IMG/VR virus record: IMGVR_UViG_3300028034_000051
Span: 1 to 64,000 of that record
Origin: a virus
Strand: one strand, 5' to 3'
DNA: 64,000 bases
The position numbers and the translations under genes are program-made. Below are positions 1-51,473 of this stretch, one piece after another. Numbering within the stretch: position 1 is the first letter of the stretch; each line of letters starts with the position of its first letter. The notes under the pieces were generated by a model. That model was not told the DNA's origin and did not search any database. It saw nothing but the letters and a program-made list of their open reading frames with translations.

Positions 1-127
1 ATGATCACCTCCATTTTTTGCATTAAAAAAGACACCCTTTCAGGAGTCTACGAAGTTATTGCATATATTAATGACGCTATTGCTACAAGCCACCCGCCCC
101 ATTTTCTAATTGTTTCTGCTAATTCAT
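1..127. repeat. 127-bp duplicated lysis-module segment, copy 1
   Basis: This segment is identical, base for base, to 43,667-43,793. It covers the end of the holin gene, its terminator and the upstream part of the next (endolysin-side) gene. The copies diverge abruptly after the shared 'aattcat'. Identity may continue left of the window. It shows recent exchange between the two prophages. Confidence 0.95.
27..50 (-). terminator. Terminator after holin gene
   Basis: An imperfect hairpin (GACTCCT/AGGGTGTC arms, positions 31-48) is followed on the minus strand by six T residues (25-30). It sits at the stop codon of the holin gene. The same structure occurs at 43,697-43,714. Confidence 0.55.
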
Positions 128-329
128 ATTTACCTTGTGATGTATTACTAATCTCACTTATCTTCTTTTCATTTTCAGCAGAAAGTTTCAGGGTTTCTCC
201 TAAATCTTGTCTTAATCCATTATATTTTCTAATTATCTCTCTAGTCTCTGATAATTCATCATGCAGCCTTTGGATCATCTCGAATAGATCCTTATTACTA
301 TACCATTGTTGCTTTTCATCACCTGCCAT
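48..329 (-). CDS. XhlA-like holin / lysis membrane protein
   Basis: A 93-residue protein with a hydrophilic, coiled-coil-prone N-terminus (about 1-70) and one C-terminal membrane segment (about 74-92, GGWLVAIASLIYAI). This is the layout of the XhlA/haemolysin-type phage membrane proteins that work with an endolysin. Its last 26 residues are identical to the protein at 43,714-43,992 in the other prophage, while the N-terminal part differs. The ribosome site lies inside the last codons of the reverse transcriptase gene, so it is probably co-transcribed with the DGR. Its endolysin partner is expected just left of the window. Confidence 0.75.
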   Translation of the reverse strand: MAGDEKQQWYSNKDLFEMIQRLHDELSETREIIRKYNGLRQDLGETLKLSAENEKKISEISNTSQGKYELAETIRKWGGWLVAIASLIYAITS

Positions 330-330
330 T

Positions 331-1446
331 CTAATACCCCCCTTCCAAGTCCATACCCCTAAATACTTTCTTTTTTAGATTATGACTGTTGCAGTGCTTA
401 AGAATTCCTAAATATGACTGGATAGTAGAGTTTAGCTCATCATATTCTATCTCTCCTTCCTCATACTTGCGTTTTTTATACTTGATATTCTTTCTCATTT
501 TCTTTTTAGTGCTCTTGCGAAGTTTACGATGTGTCGGCCAAATAACATAACCCATGAAATCAATACCCAGTGTTATTGGTCTTACCGCAGTCTTATTGTT
601 AAGCTTTAGTTCTAAATATTCATCTAAGAATATTTCTATCTCTTTCCTGATTCTGTGTAACTCTTTCTTGCTCTTACCTAGAATAACGAAGTCATCCATA
701 TACCTTATATAGTGTCTAACTCTAAGAGTATGCTTAACATACTTATCAAGCCAATCTAAATATATATTAGCAAATAGTTGCGACATTAAGTTTCCAATTG
801 GTATTCCTATTCCTTTGATTTTCTCTTTCTCAAAATGATGGTCTCCTAATTGAATTCCAAACTCTCCATCGTCTTTCTTAATGATAGTCCAGAGCAAGTC
901 TAATGTATCCTGACATCCTATCTTCCTTCCAATAATCTGTATTAATCTTTTGTGATTAATCCTGTAGAAGTATTTAGCTATGTCAGCTTTGAGATAATAA
1001 GTTTTTCCTGGACTCCTATCCATCTTTCTTAGCCAATACTGCAACTGATCAGCAGCATAATGAGTACCTTTGCCTTTTCTGCAAGCACAAGAATATTGAT
1101 AGAATACTTTATCAAAGATAGGATATAATTGACGATATATTGCCCACTGGACTACTCGATCACGAAAAGGTAACGCCATAATTAACCTTTGTTTTGGTTC
1201 GTACACGTAAAATTGATGATATTCACCTGGTGTATATTCTTTGTGGATTAGTTCATTTTGGATTTGAATAAGGTTAGATTCTAATTGTGAGCTAAATTTC
1301 AGTACTTGATTTTGATATCTTTTAGATTTTCTAGCTTCTCTATAAGATAAATATAAGTTTTCGAAATCATATATCTTAGAGTATAAATTTCTTATCTTTT
1401 TAGGAATAGTATCACTCCTAGATTGATGTTGTGCCGAGCGTAACAA
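331..1446 (-). CDS. DGR reverse transcriptase
   Basis: Retron-type reverse transcriptase of the diversity-generating retroelement class. It copies the template-repeat RNA into adenine-mutagenised cDNA that replaces the variable repeat in the tail-fibre gene. Visible motifs: first catalytic Asp in LKADIAKYF (about D155), the GIPIGNLMSQ motif (about 214-223) typical of DGR enzymes, and the YMDD catalytic pair (249-252), then the thumb with GIDFMGY. Length (371 codons) is typical. The start is uncertain: the TTG at 1446 has no ribosome site, whereas an in-frame ATT at 1407 follows AGGAGTG by five bases and would give a protein beginning PKKIRNLYSKIYDFENLY, which matches the usual N-terminus of the family. 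It follows the template repeat and precedes the holin. Confidence 0.95.
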   Translation of the reverse strand: MLRSAQHQSRSDTIPKKIRNLYSKIYDFENLYLSYREARKSKRYQNQVLKFSSQLESNLIQIQNELIHKEYTPGEYHQFYVYEPKQRLIMALPFRDRVVQWAIYRQLYPIFDKVFYQYSCACRKGKGTHYAADQLQYWLRKMDRSPGKTYYLKADIAKYFYRINHKRLIQIIGRKIGCQDTLDLLWTIIKKDDGEFGIQLGDHHFEKEKIKGIGIPIGNLMSQLFANIYLDWLDKYVKHTLRVRHYIRYMDDFVILGKSKKELHRIRKEIEIFLDEYLELKLNNKTAVRPITLGIDFMGYVIWPTHRKLRKSTKKKMRKNIKYKKRKYEEGEIEYDELNSTIQSYLGILKHCNSHNLKKKVFRGMDLEGGY

Positions 1447-1479
1447 CTTTCGACTAAGCTACTAGTTGTTTTCTCGGCA
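1432..1479 (-). other. Inverted repeat in the DGR spacer between TR and RT
   Basis: TGCCGAG (1432-1438) and AACAACT (1442-1448) pair with AGTTGTT (1464-1470) and CTCGGCA (1473-1479), giving two seven-base stems separated by a small internal loop. It lies in the RNA directly 3' of the template repeat, the region that in the BPP-1 DGR is required for cDNA priming. A priming role here is inference. Confidence 0.6.
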
Positions 1480-1600
1480 ATTTATATTTTTTGCTGGATT
1501 GACCTTTGAGGTATCTCAGCAAGGACCAAGGGCCTGTTCCTCAAAGAAACACTGTAACAATAGCCGTAACTATTATTATCTATAAAAAATGTATGAAGAG

Positions 1601-1714
1601 CACAGGCCAGGCGGCACCCATTATTCGTGTTCACATTCCACGGTCTGTTGTTCAAGTTGACAGTCCGAGCACCACAGTGAACGCCATCATTCCAATTGCC
1701 GCCGGCATGGAAAT
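1601..1714 (-). repeat. DGR template repeat (TR)
   Basis: Non-coding template aligned without gaps to the variable repeat at 2123-2236. In the 113 positions 1601-1713 there are 15 mismatches, and all fall at T on the plus strand, that is at A in the coding (minus) orientation (1621, 1622, 1624, 1630, 1631, 1636, 1648, 1649, 1651, 1658, 1678, 1691, 1696, 1697, 1708). It is rich in AAT/AAC codons in the target reading frame (encoding for example GGNWND and NLNNRPWNVN), the usual design for maximal diversity. The first 20 bases (1601-1620) are GC-rich and identical in both copies, fitting the initiation-of-mutagenic-homology element. Confidence 0.96.
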
Positions 1715-1736
1715 AACGCCCTCAACCCTGTAAAAT

Positions 1737-2066
1737 TTATAATGATTTAAGCCATCCTCCAAGTAACCTGCCTAATTCACTAACTTTTTTAGCAGCATTC
1801 TCATACTTTTTATGACTTAGATATTTTCTTTCATGAGCAAATCTGATAAGTAACTTTAATTCTTCAAGCATAACATCTATATCATATAGCTTTTGTTTCT
1901 TCTTTCTTGATTTATTAGCTCTGATTATCTTCCTTTCTATATCAATAACTAAATTTTTAATCTGCGTGCATAGAACAAACTTCTCAAATTTCGGAAAGTT
2001 GTCTACAATCGGGAAAAACCACAGCATAAAATCGTATGTCTTTTGGTAGATTGTTAATTTCTCTAT
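1737..2066 (-). CDS. avd: DGR accessory protein Avd (four-helix bundle)
   Basis: Small basic helical protein matching the Avd family, which forms a pentameric barrel that binds the DGR RT and template RNA. The C-terminal stretch RKYLSHKKYENAAKKVSELG followed by RLLGGWLKS is characteristic. The first ATG is at 2027, but Avd-like sequence continues upstream in frame (EKLTIYQKTYDF), so that ATG would cut about 13 conserved residues. No ATG, GTG or TTG lies upstream in frame; an ATA at 2064-2066 follows AAGG (2077-2080) by ten bases and is the best start candidate. It ends 22 bases before the template repeat, the usual avd-TR-rt order. Confidence 0.88.
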   Translation of the reverse strand: MEKLTIYQKTYDFMLWFFPIVDNFPKFEKFVLCTQIKNLVIDIERKIIRANKSRKKKQKLYDIDVMLEELKLLIRFAHERKYLSHKKYENAAKKVSELGRLLGGWLKSL

Positions 2067-2111
2067 ATTATCACAACCTTAATACAGATATTCAGATTAC
2101 AGAATACAGAT

Positions 2112-3149
2112 TTACAAAGGATCACAGGCCAGGCGGCACCCACCAGTCGTGCCCACAGTCCACGGTCTGGAGCTCAAGTAGACAGTCCGAGCACCACAGC
2201 GAACGCCATCATGCCAAGAGCCGCCGGCAGGGAAAGCTACTAAACCATTATTATTAGGTAGATGCATATCACCGTAACCATCCCAACCAGATTCCATACT
2301 TTCATCAAAATCTGTAGCTGGATCATACCATTGCCAAGTTGTGCTATCTTGCCTAATAGACAATTCATCTAACCATTCCCAAACGTTACCTGCACAATCT
2401 ACAATATTATAATTACTAATAGCATTAACTACTGTTCCTGTAGCTGTTCTTCCGCTATTAGAAGTTGCAGACCAGGCATTAACGTTGTCTCCGTCATTAC
2501 CTTGCGGACTTCCTTGTGCTGCTTGTATCCATTCAGACATTGATAGCATTCTTTTTTCAACCTTTGCAGCTCTTTCTGCAAAATTATACCAACTTAAACC
2601 TTCTGAACCAGTTGCAGGAGTTGCATTATATCTACTTTCTAATCCACCTTGACCGTCTTCAGAAGCTAAATATATATCTACCCAAATATTTCCTACCTTA
2701 GCCATCCCTTCGGGTGAACACTTAGGACGATTAACTAAGTCCCAAACTGAATTAGGAACAATGCCTTCTGCTACATCTCCAGCAAGGCTACCTGTCCTAA
2801 TTCTTGCGTAGTGAAATCCACCGATTTTTCTAGTATTGTCTGCATTCGGGGTTTCTCCAGAAGGCATTGAGCTTGGATAAGTAGAATTAAGTGAAAGAAT
2901 AAAGTCAGGCTCTACACCTTCAGCAGGTTGACATGCATATACATAGTAATCAGTACCTACTGCAAAACTAGAAAAACTGCCATCATTATCGGCAGCTGCT
3001 AATGTAGTTATATTTTCTATTTTCAAATTTTGCCTATCAATTCGTAATGCTAATGGTGGAATATCTACACTTTCTGCTCCATCTGTTTTTTGAATGTTAC
3101 CTTTCGCATTATAAAACGCTGGGCTATCTACTCCTACTAAGCTGAGCAT
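2112..3149 (-). CDS. DGR-diversified tail fibre / receptor-binding protein (C-type lectin fold, FGE-sulfatase type)
   Basis: A 345-residue protein. The C-terminal about 200 residues have the formylglycine-generating-enzyme/C-type lectin layout: LSWYNFAERAAK, LSMSEWIQAAQGS, NYNIVDCAGNVWEWLDE, AGGSWHDG and GCRLACDP. This is the scaffold used by many DGR targets, displaying variable side chains on the lectin surface. The variable repeat encodes the last about 39 residues. The N-terminal part (1-130) probably attaches to the tail through the two small proteins upstream. It overlaps the preceding gene by 13 bases and is the last gene of the tail module, so it is the likely host-receptor binder. 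Catalytic FGE function is not expected. Confidence 0.93.
   Translation of the reverse strand: MLSLVGVDSPAFYNAKGNIQKTDGAESVDIPPLALRIDRQNLKIENITTLAAADNDGSFSSFAVGTDYYVYACQPAEGVEPDFILSLNSTYPSSMPSGETPNADNTRKIGGFHYARIRTGSLAGDVAEGIVPNSVWDLVNRPKCSPEGMAKVGNIWVDIYLASEDGQGGLESRYNATPATGSEGLSWYNFAERAAKVEKRMLSMSEWIQAAQGSPQGNDGDNVNAWSATSNSGRTATGTVVNAISNYNIVDCAGNVWEWLDELSIRQDSTTWQWYDPATDFDESMESGWDGYGDMHLPNNNGLVAFPAGGSWHDGVRCGARTVYLSSRPWTVGTTGGCRLACDPL
2123..2236 (-). repeat. DGR variable repeat (VR)
   Basis: The copy of the template repeat that lies at the 3' end of the tail-fibre gene, covering codons of about residues 305-343. Compared with the template, eleven codons are changed, for example N to S, H, Y, T and G and H to P and R, always through substitution of coding-strand adenines. 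The conserved frame GGSW...CGARTV...RPW...GCRLAC is left untouched. Confidence 0.96.
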
Positions 3150-4540: not shown

Positions 4541-5729
4541 TATTAACCACCACCTTATCTGCATCAGTAGTAGCAACATACCTAGTACCAATAGTGATGT
4601 TAGAAGTTCCACTAGGCGGACTAACTGTGTCTATAGTCAAATTTAAATCTTCAACACCTGGTATGCTCATGGCTGTGTCTATACATTTGTTATAAATGAC
4701 ATCCCCCCCTAAACTAAGACCCAATAAAATCTCTCCTTGTGAATCAGCACCACCTATATAATTAATTACTGCATCTTGAACTTGAGTCTTGCCATCACTC
4801 GGAAACTTTGAATCATCTACATTGGTTAGATCAACAGTAACATATATTTGTTCTTCTATTGCTCTAGAAAGTTTAATTATTTTATCTTGACCACTATCAT
4901 CTTGTAAAGTATAGGTTTCATCAGTACCATACGCTTTTATTCCACCGGCTTTTTTCTCTAGTATTGCTTTAGCTATTTCTTCTCCTATGCCACCAAGAAC
5001 TACAGTCTCTATTGCTTTTGGCGGGATATTATCTACTGTACTAAATGAATCATTCTCAATAACTTTAGCAGCTCTAACGCCATCGACCTCTAATACATTA
5101 GCTAAAATAGAATCTGTTGTTGATCCACCAGGCTTATTAACTGAGTCGAGATATCTTAATCTAAGCCGATAATCAGTTTCCCTATCTTGACCACCTTCAG
5201 TAGCACTACTATTAGTTACTGAATCCAAACCAGAAATAGGATTAGTAATTACAGTAATGGTATTAGCAGCAACTCTAGTATGAGCTCCCTTTTCTATTGA
5301 TTCAATGTTTAATGTAATACTACCAGTAGAATCAATAGTACCGCTTTCAGTAGTCTTAAATTGAATAGCTGGGTCTGTATCTGTTTCGATTTTAGTACCT
5401 ATCGGTATTACTGTGTCTTGATCGCCATTAAAAGTTGCTGAACCTATAGAAACAGTTGGTTCCTTTCGCGAAATACCATTTCGTGCAACAAAGTTATCAA
5501 GTTGCTGTCCACTCACAGAAAAAATATAGGCACTATTGTAAACTTCTTCTGCCATATCCCAAGCTAATGCAGTTTCAAAAGCATTTAATTTGATGTATTT
5601 ACCCAACGGAGAATCATCCTCTAAGTTTATATCATTACCAAATAAATTTCTAGCTCTTGCTTTCTGATCAGCAACTATTTCTTCAAAAGTCTTTTTATTA
5701 AATCCTCGTTCATTTACTCCATATTCCAC
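4533..5729 (-). CDS. Baseplate J-like protein
   Basis: A 398-residue protein with the J-like architecture of contractile tails: N-terminal GVNERGFNKKTFEEIV, the KLNAFETALAWDMAEEVYNS helix, LDNFVARNGISRKEPT, and the conserved EGGQDRETDYRLRLRYLDSV segment (about 180-200). It forms the wedge ring around the central hub. It lies between the gp25-like wedge and tail protein I genes, the normal P2/Mu-type order. Confidence 0.93.
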   Translation of the reverse strand: MEYGVNERGFNKKTFEEIVADQKARARNLFGNDINLEDDSPLGKYIKLNAFETALAWDMAEEVYNSAYIFSVSGQQLDNFVARNGISRKEPTVSIGSATFNGDQDTVIPIGTKIETDTDPAIQFKTTESGTIDSTGSITLNIESIEKGAHTRVAANTITVITNPISGLDSVTNSSATEGGQDRETDYRLRLRYLDSVNKPGGSTTDSILANVLEVDGVRAAKVIENDSFSTVDNIPPKAIETVVLGGIGEEIAKAILEKKAGGIKAYGTDETYTLQDDSGQDKIIKLSRAIEEQIYVTVDLTNVDDSKFPSDGKTQVQDAVINYIGGADSQGEILLGLSLGGDVIYNKCIDTAMSIPGVEDLNLTIDTVSPPSGTSNITIGTRYVATTDADKVVVNIV

Positions 5730-5742
5730 ACAATATCACCTC

Positions 5743-6099
5743 CTATATTTCAACTGACTGCTTAAAATCATCACCTGTAGTTAATGTTCCAGATATATCA
5801 ATTACTGCATCACGAGTAGCATTATCAGTGTTTATTTCAATACTATTTATTGATTCAATAGCATCATCAGATTCTAGTGTTTTAACAATTTCTTGCTTAA
5901 TCTCATCTTCTTTTGCTTTGTTCCCTAAAAGTTTAAGCCACGGAATGCCAAAATTCAAATTAAGAAACCACTCACCTTTGCGAGTTGATAAAGAAATTTT
6001 ATTTCGTTGTCTAACTTCATCTGCTCCTTCTACCATTTTTAAATTTCCTAGATTATCAAACTCAATATCACCATTATCATTAAGATATAAACTCTTCAT
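5743..6099 (-). CDS. Baseplate wedge protein, gp25/GPW-like (DUF2634)
   Basis: A 118-residue protein with the compact gp25-like fold: DNGDIEFDNLGNLKMVEG, then EVRQRNKISLSTRKGEWFLN and GIPWLKLLGNKAKEDEIKQE. Members sit at the sheath-initiating layer of the baseplate. It lies directly between the spike and J genes. Confidence 0.88.
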   Translation of the reverse strand: MKSLYLNDNGDIEFDNLGNLKMVEGADEVRQRNKISLSTRKGEWFLNLNFGIPWLKLLGNKAKEDEIKQEIVKTLESDDAIESINSIEINTDNATRDAVIDISGTLTTGDDFKQSVEI

Positions 6100-6103
6100 A
6101 TTA

Positions 6104-6760
6104 TCATTCCACCTTTACTTTACTTGATGGATCAGGGCAAGATTGATTAGGAGAACCTGTGTTCCCACTTCCTGGATCATGACCCCATGTATAAGGATGT
6201 GTATGACCATCTAAATAAGCTTTAACCACATCACCTAATAAGACTCCTTCACTAGCACCATCTGAACCTAATTTAAGAAGATTAGTAGTCTCTAGTATGA
6301 TATTGCCTGCTTTCTTCATAATCACTTTCTCGTTAGTATCTTGGTTCATAATGAGGAAATCTTCTGTGTTGGAGGATGGCAGGTTAGCTTCTTGTTCTGT
6401 TTTTAGCCCAGAAATAACCACTGCATCATCTAAAGAATGTGTTCTAGTATATTCAACCGACTCTGGATCACCAGTAATGATAAGTTTATCTAGAGCTCGC
6501 TCATTAAATAGCACCTGGACCACATCTCCTTTGCTATAAGGTGGCCTTATTACGAAATGTCCAGCATTAAAATGAGCAACAGGGCATTCTACTACTGGTG
6601 GAATTATTACTTCTTCGCCCTCTAGTTCTTTTTTAGCTAACAATGTCACTTTAGCCCTCATTTTCTCTGGATCATACTCTTCAATTTTTGCCGGCAATGC
6701 TACATGAAGTTCGTTTAGTTCTTGATCAAGCATGTTTTTAACCATTTTACTAACTTGCAT
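6104..6760 (-). CDS. Baseplate spike protein, Gp138 N-terminal type
   Basis: A 218-residue protein. The N-terminus (about 1-100) has the OB-like Gp138 domain (ALPAKIEEYDPEKMRAKVTL, RPPYSKGDVVQVLFNERALD), followed by a repeat-rich stalk and a C-terminal tip with GHTHPYTWGHDPGSG, whose His residues can bind metal in membrane-puncturing spikes. It overlaps the hub gene by 11 bases. Function: the central puncturing device of a contractile tail. Confidence 0.88.
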   Translation of the reverse strand: MQVSKMVKNMLDQELNELHVALPAKIEEYDPEKMRAKVTLLAKKELEGEEVIIPPVVECPVAHFNAGHFVIRPPYSKGDVVQVLFNERALDKLIITGDPESVEYTRTHSLDDAVVISGLKTEQEANLPSSNTEDFLIMNQDTNEKVIMKKAGNIILETTNLLKLGSDGASEGVLLGDVVKAYLDGHTHPYTWGHDPGSGNTGSPNQSCPDPSSKVKVE

Positions 6761-26152: not shown

Positions 26153-26603
26153 TCGACCACTCCTTTCTGCGCCTGGCTAACTTCTCCTCATGCTCCTGGA
26201 GGAAGCGGTCAACTAACTCGCGCCTGTGATTCTTGTTACCTCGGTCATTAGCACAAATCAAACCATAAAACATATCTAACACTTCACCAATGAAGTAATT
26301 ACAAACTATTATATTTATATGGACATCATCAAACCTTTTTACTCTACTATGGAAGAACCTATAACTTAAGTTCAGTTTTCCTACACTAAATGAGGTATTA
26401 TTGACATAAGAAACATCAACTGGTATTGACCTGACCATATCCTTATATCCAACTACTGTCTGAGCTAAATCTAGCAATTCATGACACCTATCCTGCCAAT
26501 TATCTGCTTCCAATACTTCTTGCTGTTCCTCTTCTATTTTGTCTATTTGAGTTTCTCTAGTTCTCCAAGGTTCATAAGTTGGTACTAGTTTGATTTCTAT
26601 CAT
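26139..26603 (-). CDS. MazG-like/NTP-pyrophosphatase-related protein
   Basis: A 154-residue helical protein. The segment IDKIEEEQQEVLEADNWQDR CHELLDLAQ carries an EExxE...ExxD-type pattern like the all-alpha NTP pyrophosphatases (MazG group), but the second half (about 75-125) is unusual. It overlaps the upstream radical SAM gene by four bases. Nucleotide-pool cleaning is possible but not certain. Confidence 0.5.
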   Translation of the reverse strand: MIEIKLVPTYEPWRTRETQIDKIEEEQQEVLEADNWQDRCHELLDLAQTVVGYKDMVRSIPVDVSYVNNTSFSVGKLNLSYRFFHSRVKRFDDVHINIIVCNYFIGEVLDMFYGLICANDRGNKNHRRELVDRFLQEHEEKLARRRKEWSNENA

Positions 26604-27376
26604 TCTGCATCACCTACCTCAGGAAACTCTTGAATCTTCTCCTGCCAATCTAGATTATCTTTAACAAATACTGGACCGTTATAATTTCTAAACACTTGAT
26701 CAACCCACCATCTTTCAGGTTTTCTTGCTCCTGGTCCAGTTTGAGCCCCAATAATAACCCAGTTAAACGGAGCTAAAGTTATATGATCTTCTACATTCCC
26801 TAACAATGGTTCAATTGAAAGAAATTTTACATTAGCTTTAACATAATACATAATGTCGGTTCTTTCCATATCTGCTTTAAAATCGGTACCATCTACACTA
26901 GTTCCTAACCAGCAGTTACTAGGTATATCAAAATCACAATATCGTCTAGGATTCTTAGTTAACAGCTGGAACGTGTGCTGATCTGCTTGTCTAATTACAT
27001 CCAAGACTTTCTCTATCCATTCATCTGGCACCCATTCACCGAACATATCTGCCATTGATCCAACGAATATTTTTACTGGCTTACTTCTTTCTAACGGTTC
27101 ATTAAGTCTATATCTGTGAAGTGTTGGCTCGAATCCGAAAGGATGAGCAGTTTTTCTCAAATCTCCATCATGTATATGACTATCTATATCCCATATTCGG
27201 CCATATTCAGTTGGAACAGAACACCTTTTACGATTGAATTCTTTACATTTTTTGCGATCATATTCTGACAAAAACCTATGAGCTATCTTTCGTGCATAAC
27301 AATATTCGCAATCATGATAACAACCTGTGATCGGATTCCAAGTGAAGTCAGTCCACTCTATTCCTGTTCTGTTCAC
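26600..27376 (-). CDS. DUF5131 (phage Gp37/Gp68-type) radical SAM-like protein
   Basis: A 258-residue protein starting GIEWTDFTWNPITGCYHDCE and YCYARK: Cys19, Cys23 and Cys26 form a CxxxCxxC iron-sulphur site. Downstream GSMADMFGEWVPDEWIEKVL and VIIGAQTGPGARKPERWWVD are diagnostic of the family. It is often carried by phages and mobile elements; the substrate is unknown. Confidence 0.92.
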   Translation of the reverse strand: MNRTGIEWTDFTWNPITGCYHDCEYCYARKIAHRFLSEYDRKKCKEFNRKRCSVPTEYGRIWDIDSHIHDGDLRKTAHPFGFEPTLHRYRLNEPLERSKPVKIFVGSMADMFGEWVPDEWIEKVLDVIRQADQHTFQLLTKNPRRYCDFDIPSNCWLGTSVDGTDFKADMERTDIMYYVKANVKFLSIEPLLGNVEDHITLAPFNWVIIGAQTGPGARKPERWWVDQVFRNYNGPVFVKDNLDWQEKIQEFPEVGDAE

Positions 27377-39205: not shown

Positions 39206-39264
39206 CTTTAAATCGAACATACATTCTTTACTTGACGCCGTAATTTGTAAAGGAGATGATATTC

Positions 39265-46419: not shown

Positions 46420-46911
46420 TTAAATCACCTCCACTTGAGTCTGTGGGTGATTTCTAAATAAATCCCCTTGATAACTGATAATATAATTGCCTACATCAGT
46501 TACTTCAACAACTTGCTCACCATGATTATTAGTGATAGGTATATTTATTGGAATATCTTCAAAATAAACAGTCACAGATGCTATATCATCAACTGCAATA
46601 GTATCTTTAATATCAACTATAATAGTCAATTTAGAACTTACAGAAGTATTTACTGTAACCTTATCAGTGACTAATTCTATTTTAGGTTTGGGAACAACAT
46701 TATCATTAACTACTCTTAATTCGTTTTGAGCTTGATTAGTAAGCATATTTTGGTCAATAGTTATAAATGACATATACTTTTTAGCATCTTCTGATACTCT
46801 AGCACTACGATACAATGCTTCATCAGAAGGTAATCCTGCACTACCATGAGGTTCTGGCTGACATCTTAATATCTCGTTGGTTCTGGTATCGTATAATATT
46901 TTGCTAGGCAT
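46420..46911 (-). CDS. Tail-region Ig-like protein
   Basis: A 163-residue protein beginning PSKILYDTRTNEILRCQPEP with a C-terminal beta domain (PKIELVTDKVTVNTSVSSKL, VVEVTDVGNYIISYQGDLF). Common after J-type tail tip genes. It shares its start/stop base with the gene before. Confidence 0.65.
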   Translation of the reverse strand: MPSKILYDTRTNEILRCQPEPHGSAGLPSDEALYRSARVSEDAKKYMSFITIDQNMLTNQAQNELRVVNDNVVPKPKIELVTDKVTVNTSVSSKLTIIVDIKDTIAVDDIASVTVYFEDIPINIPITNNHGEQVVEVTDVGNYIISYQGDLFRNHPQTQVEVI

Positions 46912-49900
46912 TAATCAGCACCTCCTTCAATTGCAATCCACATTACTTCGCCATTATCAACAATTTGGTCTCTCCAAAAGCTCCATTTTGTTATAATAAG
47001 TGATCCCTTTGCTATTTCTATTTTAATGGCATATTTCCCCGCAGGTAAGTTAGGAATTAGAATTTTATTCGTTGGCCCATAACTGCCATATAATGTCCAA
47101 CCAGTATCATTATATTCTTTATAATATACATTTACAGGGAACGGAGCATCACCTGTATAAAACGTTACAGACAATTTTGTTACATCACTTTGCGAAGTAT
47201 ATGATGATATCCATATTGGATTTTGATAATCAAGAGTTACATCAGTAATATCATTAACATGCTCTATGCCTTTAATGATTGAATGACCGTATGCATAGAA
47301 ACCATCTTTTGAAATAGCACTGGCAAAGCTTTCATAAGTTTGCGTTTTCCCACTATAATTAACATTATAACTCATTAAACTTTTGATAGCCGTTTGCACT
47401 TTTGGAGCTTTATCCCACCCGAGATTAATATAATCACCATCCTGTGCTACACCGTAAGCTACTCGTTTACTATACCAATGAGGAATAGTTGAACCTGCTT
47501 CATAAAATTTCAAATGATCATCATTCAATATTGACCTATCACCATCTGAACCGACAATCTCAATCCCATCTTCACCATTGATTAGCATACCACCCGGGTA
47601 CATTTGTACATTTCCTGCTCCAATTGTTGGTTCAGCATCATAGAATGGTGCGTTAGATTTATGCCAAGATAAAACTTCTTCGTTTGTGTGTGCTTTATCA
47701 GAAATCATAAGTTCATCAATTAGAACACCTTTAATTGAATGACCAAACTCTAAACGGCTCATTTCTTGCGTTACTGTCCCAGTACCTTTTTTAGTTCCAT
47801 CCCCATATACAGTCACAGTCCCATTCTCTCTTACAAAAGTTACTGTATGCCATTCATAAGGAAGGAAGTTATTAACTGCATTAGGACAACCACTCACTCT
47901 AATATCTTGATAAGCAGTTTCACACCACCATCTACCAGAGTGGTCACTATTCCACCAATTAAATACATCTTGCCATCTATCAGTTGAATCATCATACTCT
48001 TTAGTAATTGCAACTTCAAAATGTAAAGTAAAATCACCTGTGCCTATTTGTGGTGTTTTATAATCTAGCACTCCATTTGGTCTACTTCCATCTACAAAAC
48101 TAGTTGAAAATGATTTGCTTTCAATCTGCATCCTTTTTGCATAAGATGTACCTGTATCAATAGTGCCTGGATAATGATATATAGCAAATCCTAATCTATC
48201 AGCAGGATTACCATCACTTCCTAATACACTATCATCTCGAGTGAATGTTATTGAATATCTATCATATGAAGTTTTAGTAGATGATAGAGCCACGGCACCT
48301 ATCCATTCACCATTAGGGTTTTTAGAATAGATATAAAATCTAACTTCACCACCAGCATCTTTTCTAGCTTGATCTATTTTCAAGTCTACAGAGAAAGTGA
48401 CTTTATCTCCATTAGACATACCTAACTTAGCAAATGTATATGACTCTGTCCAAAAACTATATCCTGTTCCAGAATAGGCTAGTTCACCAGTTGCGTAATT
48501 GTTTTGTGCAAGATTAGTTGTACCTTCTTCAATTGCTACCGCACCGCCGAATACACCTTCGTTTGGTCTTAAAGTAGCAACTGGTGTTCCAACTGGCTTA
48601 ACCCCATCTGTACTAACTAATGACCTGTCAAAGTGCCATAGGTGCGCATCTTCTGGTTTTGTTGGATTTGCGTAAGCCTTTGCATTACTCTCAGCACTAT
48701 CAGCTTTAGCCTGTGCTCCAGCTTCATTTTCTGCCGGTGATCCCGAAACAGTTATGCCGTTAGCATCAATATAGGTAGAACTGTTTTCACTTTGAACTTT
48801 CATATTTCCGGTAAGTGTAAGAACCTGGGCTAATATTTCATCAGATAAAGTTACAGTCCAGAATTTCAATTCGTATAATGTTAATGCTGCATCAAATACT
48901 ATTCTCATTTTGTTTGTAGCTACCATCTTATCATTATCAAACCGTTTTATATTCCATTGGTTGGCATTGCAAGCCACAGGACTAGTACTAGAACCTATTA
49001 CATCTATCCAAGCTTCTGTGTCTTTGTCCCAAGCTTGTACATAGTAATTACAGGCAACACTAGGATAGAATCTAACCATGTCAAAGAACCACTGCATCGG
49101 ATATTCAAAAGTAATGGTTGGTGCACTACCGAAAGCAGGTCCTAATCCTGTATCCATATCCCAAAGTTGTTCTAATGATCCAGAGCTTGGCGTTACATCA
49201 CTTATAGGATTAATATTGAACGATTGATTTATATCCTTTGCATCAATTAGGTTAGGAGTAATTGAGCCACTACCCCATGGCCCTTGTTGACCTAACTTAT
49301 CTATAAATCTAGCTCTTACATAGTTAGTTGTATCACCAATAGCAGGTACTTCTCTGATAAAATCTTTTCCTTTATAAATCTCCGGACTACCAAAATTACT
49401 GTCGGTATCAATTTGAAATTCGATAATATCTAAGTCTTTGATATTCGGATCATCAACTGCTAATTGTAATTGCGATAGTGTAGAATTGATATGTAGTGTC
49501 GGCATTGGTGGTACCGAGTTGGTAACAGTTACACTCACTGCATTAGCTGAATATACACCGCTACGATTGAATGCTTTGATATAGAATGTCTCACTAACTG
49601 TTTCTGGTTCCTTAATGTGAGATAATGCATTACCTCGATAGATCAATTCTGAATTAGCAGTCGTATCTTGACCCCAGTTCATATCTGCGGTTCTTATTTC
49701 AAATCCTGACTTATCTTGATCAGGTATATCATTCCATTGTAAGACTATCTTATCTTCAAAAGTACATGTAGCCCAGGTAACATCACTTGGTGGATTTTCA
49801 TTACCAGTTATAGTTATTGTAGTAGTTGGTGATGTTCCAAAGTCTGCTTTAATACCGTGCCTATTTTCAGAAACTACCTTAACATCGTAAATTTCTGGAC

Positions 49901-51473
49901 TAACTGGTTTGATATCAAATTCTAATTCTTCAGTTCTGCCTGCATAATTCCATTCAATTGCTGAGCTAACCTTGTAATAAATATGAGCATATTTCCAGTA
50001 ATGATCTACTGGCTTATCGTATGTTACATGAATAACAGGCACATAAGACCCATCTCCTATCAACTCGCCACTTTCAACTGCTGTTAAATTAAGTACATTA
50101 TCCGGCTTAGCAAATGGATTAGGCAACGTAGAATCTTTTTTAGGTTGCTCTACTACTCCCGAATCTGAATATATTGCATCATTATATTCCTGGCAAACTA
50201 ACCTCATTTCGTCATTCTCTTCTTCGTGAATCTCTAAAATACGAAACTCTTTATCTACCCAACCAGGAACATCATGACTTACTGTAATTACATCTCCCAC
50301 TTCACAATGCAAACTATCTATCCCTACTTTGAATTCACAAAATGTAGAGCAAAATTTAGCTTTTTTCTGATAGAACCTTGCTAATCTTCCGGCCTGGTTA
50401 AACCGGTTGATTCCAAGTAGAGATATAGTCTTATCTACTACTTCCCCTCTCTTTTCAATATCTCGATCGTCGGTATATTGAGCGTATACTTTTTGCCAAT
50501 TTTTATTAGGATCCGTATACTGGACTAAAACTTTGTTAGGAACTTCTTTTCTACTACTTTTATTGTAACTAAACGAATCCTCAACTATATTATCCATGGT
50601 GTAACTCTGCACCGGTGCTTCCGGCATATCTGCTTTAAGTCTTAATTCTCCACCTGAATAAAGTAAAAATGCTCTAAAAGTACCAAGTATACTTTGAATA
50701 ATATCTAAACTAGATTGTTTAGCGTCAATTACATAATCTAATTTAAACCTTGGAACTTGGTTACCGCTGCCATCATCAACCGTTTCATCACAATGATTAG
50801 CAACAGTTTTAAATGACTCTAAATCAATATGTTGCTTATCTATTCCCAGGCCATAACGTGAATTAGTTAAGAAATCAAGTAAACAATAAGCTGGATTTTG
50901 AGAGTATTGAGTAACCCAGCTAGAAGTACCATTATTCCATACTTCAACTTCCCTACCTTCTATAATAGAAGTTATAGTTGGAGTACCACTTAATTCTAAT
51001 TCTTCAGCATCCAAAGAAGCTGAAATGTAAGCTAAAAAAGGAAATGTTTCACCATTAAGATTAATACTATCTGCTGTTTGAGCCCGGTTTCCTAGCCTAA
51101 TATTAGCAGTTATGCTTACATTGTCTGCTTTAATTGAAGATATAGACTTAATAGGTCCTTCGGATACTCCAACTTGAATATCCATGTATTGATCATTATC
51201 ACCAGATATCTTTTGAAAAATTATATTACCGGCAACTCTATTTCTTCCGTATGCCACCGGAATAGGTAATTCTTGCGATTTTGTATTACGAATAGGGCCA
51301 AACGAATAAGTTGAAGAACTAGCTAATTGAGATTCTAATTCTTGGGCCTGTTGGTAATTATCGTAGCTTCTACCAAGCGAAAAACCCATCATTACTCCCC
51401 GAAGGATATTAGCCCCAATTGCTTCAGCTGTAAACCCTCCTATTACTGCTCCTATCGCTGCTCCAGCTCCCAA
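46911..51473 (-). CDS. Central tail tip protein, lambda J-like, with LamG-like insertion
   Basis: A 1,520-residue protein. N-terminal membrane-like glycine-rich helix (about 1-35), TipJ core (ELPIPVAYGRNRVAGNIIFQ, YSQNPAYCLLDFLTNSRYGL), fibronectin III-like domains (about 440-720) and a concanavalin/LamG-like domain (about 1,000-1,270; FTLHFEVAITKEYDDSTDRW, FVRENGTVTVYGDGTKKGTG). Forms the tip of a flexible tail and determines host specificity. Confidence 0.92.
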   Translation of the reverse strand: MGAGAAIGAVIGGFTAEAIGANILRGVMMGFSLGRSYDNYQQAQELESQLASSSTYSFGPIRNTKSQELPIPVAYGRNRVAGNIIFQKISGDNDQYMDIQVGVSEGPIKSISSIKADNVSITANIRLGNRAQTADSINLNGETFPFLAYISASLDAEELELSGTPTITSIIEGREVEVWNNGTSSWVTQYSQNPAYCLLDFLTNSRYGLGIDKQHIDLESFKTVANHCDETVDDGSGNQVPRFKLDYVIDAKQSSLDIIQSILGTFRAFLLYSGGELRLKADMPEAPVQSYTMDNIVEDSFSYNKSSRKEVPNKVLVQYTDPNKNWQKVYAQYTDDRDIEKRGEVVDKTISLLGINRFNQAGRLARFYQKKAKFCSTFCEFKVGIDSLHCEVGDVITVSHDVPGWVDKEFRILEIHEEENDEMRLVCQEYNDAIYSDSGVVEQPKKDSTLPNPFAKPDNVLNLTAVESGELIGDGSYVPVIHVTYDKPVDHYWKYAHIYYKVSSAIEWNYAGRTEELEFDIKPVSPEIYDVKVVSENRHGIKADFGTSPTTTITITGNENPPSDVTWATCTFEDKIVLQWNDIPDQDKSGFEIRTADMNWGQDTTANSELIYRGNALSHIKEPETVSETFYIKAFNRSGVYSANAVSVTVTNSVPPMPTLHINSTLSQLQLAVDDPNIKDLDIIEFQIDTDSNFGSPEIYKGKDFIREVPAIGDTTNYVRARFIDKLGQQGPWGSGSITPNLIDAKDINQSFNINPISDVTPSSGSLEQLWDMDTGLGPAFGSAPTITFEYPMQWFFDMVRFYPSVACNYYVQAWDKDTEAWIDVIGSSTSPVACNANQWNIKRFDNDKMVATNKMRIVFDAALTLYELKFWTVTLSDEILAQVLTLTGNMKVQSENSSTYIDANGITVSGSPAENEAGAQAKADSAESNAKAYANPTKPEDAHLWHFDRSLVSTDGVKPVGTPVATLRPNEGVFGGAVAIEEGTTNLAQNNYATGELAYSGTGYSFWTESYTFAKLGMSNGDKVTFSVDLKIDQARKDAGGEVRFYIYSKNPNGEWIGAVALSSTKTSYDRYSITFTRDDSVLGSDGNPADRLGFAIYHYPGTIDTGTSYAKRMQIESKSFSTSFVDGSRPNGVLDYKTPQIGTGDFTLHFEVAITKEYDDSTDRWQDVFNWWNSDHSGRWWCETAYQDIRVSGCPNAVNNFLPYEWHTVTFVRENGTVTVYGDGTKKGTGTVTQEMSRLEFGHSIKGVLIDELMISDKAHTNEEVLSWHKSNAPFYDAEPTIGAGNVQMYPGGMLINGEDGIEIVGSDGDRSILNDDHLKFYEAGSTIPHWYSKRVAYGVAQDGDYINLGWDKAPKVQTAIKSLMSYNVNYSGKTQTYESFASAISKDGFYAYGHSIIKGIEHVNDITDVTLDYQNPIWISSYTSQSDVTKLSVTFYTGDAPFPVNVYYKEYNDTGWTLYGSYGPTNKILIPNLPAGKYAIKIEIAKGSLIITKWSFWRDQIVDNGEVMWIAIEGGAD

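Follow-up and report, generated by a model that had tools for sequence, protein, structure and literature searches.

A recently active Bordetella-type diversity-generating retroelement with putative AUH starts in a contractile phage of a probable Halanaerobium relative

The window (the whole stretch of DNA analysed here, which covers bases 1-64000 of a virus record 72,413 bases long) carries on its minus strand, at 331-3149, what is almost certainly a genuine, complete and recently active diversity-generating retroelement (DGR) of the Bordetella type, judged from its sequence and from that of its relatives. As such, the DGR is of a known kind; it is a variant by the non-canonical starts of its reverse transcriptase (RT) and Avd genes, both of which are probably initiated at AUH codons (AUA, AUC or AUU), and by a missing hairpin after the variable repeat (VR).

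The cassette and its phage

In transcription order, the cassette consists of an mtd-like target gene that includes the VR, avd, the template repeat (TR), a structured RNA and the RT gene, with the following features in window coordinates:

2112-3149, minus strand: mtd-like target gene, 345 amino acids, ATG start (Pfam Mtd second domain, E 1.7e-17)
2123-2235, minus strand: VR, the last codons of mtd (15/113 mismatches against the TR)
2123-2142, minus strand: adenine-free 3' end of the VR, TGGGTGCCGCCTGGCCTGTG, at an IMH-like position (identical in the TR at 1601-1620)
2066-2084, minus strand: weak AT-only inverted repeat TATTA[AGGTTGTGA]TAATA, overlapping the avd ribosome-binding site
1737-2066, minus strand: avd, 109 amino acids, proposed AUA start (Pfam bAvd, E 8.9e-31; N-terminal alignment of 105 Avds)
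2064-2066, minus strand: proposed AUA start codon of avd, with TTAAGGTTGTGATAAT just before it
1601-1713, minus strand: TR (by comparison with the VR; identical in the sister contig L020)
1434-1598, minus strand: Rfam RT-14 structured RNA (RF02921; 55.0 bits), lying between TR and RT
1415-1419, minus strand: Shine-Dalgarno sequence AGGAG of the RT gene, 7 nt before the AUU
1405-1407, minus strand: proposed AUU start codon of the RT gene
331-1407, minus strand: reverse transcriptase, 358 amino acids, proposed AUU start (RVT_1 and PHROG RT)
48-329, minus strand: small ORF after the RT gene with one C-terminal hydrophobic stretch, putative holin

An earlier note on this DNA had described a complete DGR, and profile searches (Pfam, PHROG, Rfam) recovered all of its parts. 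The RT matched RVT_1 in Pfam (E 1e-22) and 'Reverse transcriptase' in PHROG (E 9e-145), its closest solved chain is 8ub7, a reverse transcriptase (E 1e-58), and its translation contains YMDD and the DGR-type motif IGNLMSQ; in the tree it groups with the RTs of other TR/VR-bearing cassettes. The structured RNA scored 55.0 bits against an Rfam gathering score of 48.1 (E 4.7e-7), and RT-14 family members occupy the equivalent position in L008, L009, L014, L017, L022 and L073. In the window this RNA sits exactly between TR and RT, a position taken in BPP-1 by the spacer from which cDNA synthesis is primed (PMC12875486). The window thus combines what defines a DGR: an adenine rule relating TR and VR, a DGR-type RT, Avd, a lectin-type target, a spacer RNA, and a VR that varies while the TR is fixed. 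Downstream of a Selenomonas DGR, an Rfam match to the type II hammerhead ribozyme was also observed (L009:10434-10499; 45.4 bits, cut-off 37).

Sheath and baseplate wedge families (PHROG) bear out the contractile tail that had been proposed, and genes for the capsid, portal and large terminase lie in the same run, with an integrase at 39256. The nearest RTs are 72% identical and belong to IMG/VR contigs, to a Halanaerobiales MAG and to H. saccharolyticum, which has two copies. The host is therefore probably related to Halanaerobium, and the DGR most likely belongs to a contractile-tailed temperate phage of such a Halanaerobium-like host. The location given earlier, between tail fibre and holin, is only partly upheld: relatives have a holin after the RT (with an endolysin, directly after it, in L004; also in Bacillus phage BalMu-1), but ORF 48-329 had no Pfam or PHROG match and the two genes upstream of the cassette had no family match.

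The record itself seems to contain two adjoining phages (window 1-40407 and 43163-64000, the second continuing in L021), either as tandem prophages or as a chimeric assembly. Landmarks of the contractile phage are its terminase (19200), capsid (15118), sheath (11294) and integrase (39256), and the second phage has its own capsid (59669), portal and large terminase, a tape-measure-like ORF and a long tail-tip-like ORF (46911-51473). An ORF at 26600-27376 resembles, by eye, a radical-SAM-like protein of the phage Gp37/Gp68 family.

Adenine-restricted variation of an Mtd-like protein

The TR and VR are each 113 nt long at an offset of 522, and 2235, not 2236 as first reported, is the last position of the VR core. 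All of the 15 mismatches fall among the 25 template adenines: six are A>C, six A>G and three A>T. The remaining 10 adenines are unchanged and no other core position differs; the recount agrees with the earlier tally of 15 substitutions in 113 positions, each at an adenine and none elsewhere, and with its eleven differing codons. The changed template codons had been described as Asn, which holds for nine of them (AAT or AAC), the other two being His. Nine adenine-bearing TR codons are AAY, which cannot turn into stops, and the proteins encodable over all adenine codons number about 2e14.

Our profile of 28 relatives matched all solved variants of BPP-1 Mtd (E ~1e-33 to 2e-33), and the target is homologous to Mtd, a known receptor binder, over most of its length, including the VR domain. 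This supports the prediction, already made in the earlier note, that the target is a receptor-binding tail protein, here with a C-terminal C-type lectin domain. The VR region of an AlphaFold model of the target was too poor (pLDDT <50), and surface exposure was therefore judged by alignment to solved Mtd. The residues that vary among the window, L020 and the TR are the same ones that vary among five solved Mtd variants (11/11; P 3.5e-9), at aligned C-terminal domain positions 344, 346, 347, 350, 357, 359, 360, 364, 366, 368 and 369 in chain numbering, an exact match that supports the assignment of the variable codons to surface lectin positions. Ten of the 11 changed window codons fall within this Mtd-variable set; the eleventh (2231, His to Pro) lies upstream of it, and position 314 varies in L020 only.

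To find a sister, we searched with the adenine-free 3' end of the TR, which returned a single contig, L020, that carries the two repeats with the 522-nt spacing. The window and L020 differ at 17 positions in 2,029 nt, all 17 of them in the VR and at template adenines, and their TR and avd are identical. The same pattern was found between L004 and L005 (14 differences in 6,260 nt, 12 in the VR) and between L017 and L007 (50 differences in 4,623 nt, 15 in the VR), with each VR difference at a TR adenine and the TR unchanged in both pairs. Adenine restriction by chance has P 1.7e-14 for the 17 window/L020 differences and, taken alone, ~1e-10 to 1e-14 across the sister pairs, which excludes chance; the same adenine bias was present in more than 40 further relatives.

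Recombination with other strains, instead of DGR action, was considered as the source of these VR differences, and it does occur in the lineage, as L020 is strongly divergent from the window beyond 6.5 kb. However, the VR changes are confined to template adenines (17/17, 12/12 and 15/15) and the near flanks and the TR are identical or nearly so between sisters, and we consequently rejected this explanation as highly improbable. DGR action is the reading we retain: with a varying VR, a fixed TR and no non-adenine VR change between sisters, the comparison of related genomes proposed in the earlier note sustains its claim that the element worked recently in this lineage.

Adenine-specific change and one-way transfer from TR to VR are established here at the level of the sequences compared, and the biochemical steps would be those of BPP-1 by analogy. 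An RNA spanning the end of avd, the TR and the structured spacer would be copied by an RT-Avd complex, template adenines would be misread during copying, and the cDNA would replace the VR that ends mtd. In this way, the phage could vary as many as 15 residues on the lectin face that binds the receptor and yet retain the scaffold.

Among other contigs, L030, L032, L035 and L036 break off inside mtd or shortly beyond it, which is what interruption of assembly by VR hypervariation would be expected to produce. L015 carries at 4628-6308 an RT fragment 88% identical to the window RT, preceded by a different lectin-type gene, and no avd or TR pair was found next to this fragment.

In phage DGRs, the VR is followed by a GC-rich stem of 7-10 bp with a GRNA loop, which is important for homing in BPP-1 (PMC3240598). 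Our scan of 92 cassettes found no GC-rich GRNA hairpin after the VR in the window, L003, L004, L006, L017 or L018, while recovering the BPP-1 hairpin as a positive control and similar ones in most others. The window has only a weak AT stem at this position, over the avd ribosome-binding site. The missing hairpin implies that target recognition may differ from that of BPP-1, and the comparison of the window with L020 shows that the element works without the canonical structure. No report of its absence from these phages was found in the literature searched, the coverage of which is incomplete.

Start codons of the RT and avd genes

The window RT has ATT (1407) at the alignment column where outgroup RTs start with ATG, GTG or TTG, with AGGAG 7 nt before it. 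A maximum-likelihood tree placed it in a clade of 14 distinct RTs from Halanaerobium phages (support 100/99), all 14 of which have ATT or ATC at the start column and 12 of which have no ATG, GTG or TTG nearby upstream. Among the 90 DGR RTs surveyed for comparison, 73 have such a codon at that distance and 4 more have one slightly further off. Several other candidates were set aside: L143, considered as an independent AUU-started RT, has an in-frame ATG upstream; L083, with ATA at the start column, has an in-frame GTG/ATG upstream; and L045, L049, L054 and L056, considered as start-less, have ATG or TTG slightly further upstream.

The avd gene of the window begins ATA GAG AAA TTA (2066) where others begin ATG GAA. 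The same column is ATC in L003, L004 and L006 and ATT in L017 and L018, each soon after an in-frame stop, so that AUA, AUC or AUU is found in 6/6 close Avds against ATG, GTG or TTG in the outgroup. Nine of 105 Avds lack ATG, GTG or TTG in their open frame, and all nine carry ATA, ATC or ATT at the start column; they include the Selenomonas-type Avds L009, L011 and L162 (ATA or ATC). The trait is not fixed for avd, which starts with TTG in L022, L062, L064 and L073 despite their AUU-started RTs.

The AUH codons of both RT and avd have a Shine-Dalgarno sequence at normal spacing, and with AUH at the aligned start and no canonical start they have the features of AUH genes, apart from an upstream TTG that remains in the window RT. 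The target gene, unlike RT and avd, starts with ATG, and a normal start with Shine-Dalgarno sequence was found in 43/44 other ORFs of the phage, which served as a control.

It is improbable, in our judgement, that the AUH codons are accidental, with the RT instead initiated at an upstream TTG, or reached from an out-of-frame GTG by frameshift or readthrough, and Avd initiated at the ATG at 2027. Such codons do exist: an in-frame TTG (1446) lies 13 codons upstream of the AUU in the window RT, L017 has a TTG two codons upstream and L073 a GTG, and in several relatives an out-of-frame GTG/ATG overlaps the Shine-Dalgarno sequence. However, the in-frame codons of these three RTs are poorly placed, though they may yet serve as starts there, the GTG frame in L006 closes at once, and in L002, L003, L004, L006, L018, L022 and others the stretch from the in-frame stop to the conserved N-terminus is free of ATG, GTG and TTG. 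Inside the RTs, a canonical codon first occurs at residue 18-77, within or beyond conserved sequence, and a start at ATG 2027 would remove 13 conserved residues of Avd, losing the N-terminus that outgroups begin with ATG. RT and Avd therefore appear to start at 1407 and 2066, respectively, and not at the TTG and ATG that gene calling yields. AUH starts would cause gene callers to mis-start or truncate RT and Avd, with effects on DGR catalogues and on attempts at protein expression.

Possible regulation and relation to known systems

The textbook AUH gene is infC, and its start column is AUC or AUA in nine Halanaerobiales genomes. Inspection of L085-L094 likewise showed Halanaerobiales infC beginning with AUC (AUA in one), not ATG, GTG or TTG. 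AUH-type starts are repressed by IF3 (PMC5472188), and the same type of start in infC of the host suggests that the mutagenic machinery is subject to a translational brake of the IF3 type. We tentatively propose that low RT and Avd output through IF3 is the purpose of these codons: AUH starts would hold both proteins at low output, IF3 disfavouring such codons, and DGR output would respond to the IF3 level. More generally, the mutator proteins of this clade, and Avd repeatedly elsewhere, might be AUH-started where the target is not, with IF3 possibly setting the rate of mutagenesis and, when scarce, releasing it. The AUH starts may also lower ribosome traffic on the avd-TR-spacer RNA, itself the cDNA template.

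There is also some chance that the AUH starts are real but have no regulatory meaning, having drifted and been tolerated since little RT and Avd is needed. The varying third base (ATT/ATC in RT, ATA/ATC/ATT in Avd) and the TTG-started avd of some clade members would be consistent with such drift. Nevertheless, across 14 RTs and nine Avds the third base, although it changes on the tree, is in no case G. This retention of AUH in the face of third-base changes supports selection, and the same solution also recurs in the Selenomonas-type Avds L009, L011 and L162.

The DGR of the window resembles that of Bordetella phage BPP-1 (mtd-avd-TR-brt) in gene order, strand and parts, with homologous Mtd, Avd and RT, the same 11 variable lectin positions and adenine-specific transfer. 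It differs from BPP-1 in the AUU and AUA starts of RT and Avd, in the absence of the GC-rich GRNA-loop hairpin that BPP-1 has after its VR, and in belonging to a contractile phage of a halophilic anaerobe. The nearest named phage RT (52% identity) is that of the Mu-like Bacillus phage BalMu-1, where avd is also upstream and a holin and an amidase follow the RT; unlike avd of the window, that of BalMu-1 starts with ATG, two codons ahead of the homologous region. The DGRs of Halanaerobium prophages and IMG/VR contigs (L004, L006, L017, L018, L022) share its clade and layout, with RTs 72% identical to that of the window, varied VRs and AUU/AUC RT starts, but their Avds start with AUC or AUU (TTG in L022) instead of AUA. 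A start other than ATG, GTG or TTG behind a Shine-Dalgarno sequence is shared with infC of Halanaerobiales and sigR of Streptomyces (PMC5472188 for IF3 repression), although these are unrelated to the RT and avd genes, and control of the DGR by IF3 is inferred.

DGRs are broadly active in nature, and this one may already stand in a published catalogue that covers IMG metagenomes (PMC8144416). The literature searched, with incomplete coverage, held no report of Halanaerobium DGRs or of non-canonical starts in DGRs, which leaves novelty unproven.

The DGR described here adds contractile phages with Halanaerobium-like hosts to the range of the known Mtd-type system. How DGR activity stays low enough to spare most progeny is not obvious from the literature found; if our proposal is true, a weak class of start codon on both machinery genes would provide a simple throttle, and a link to IF3 of the host.
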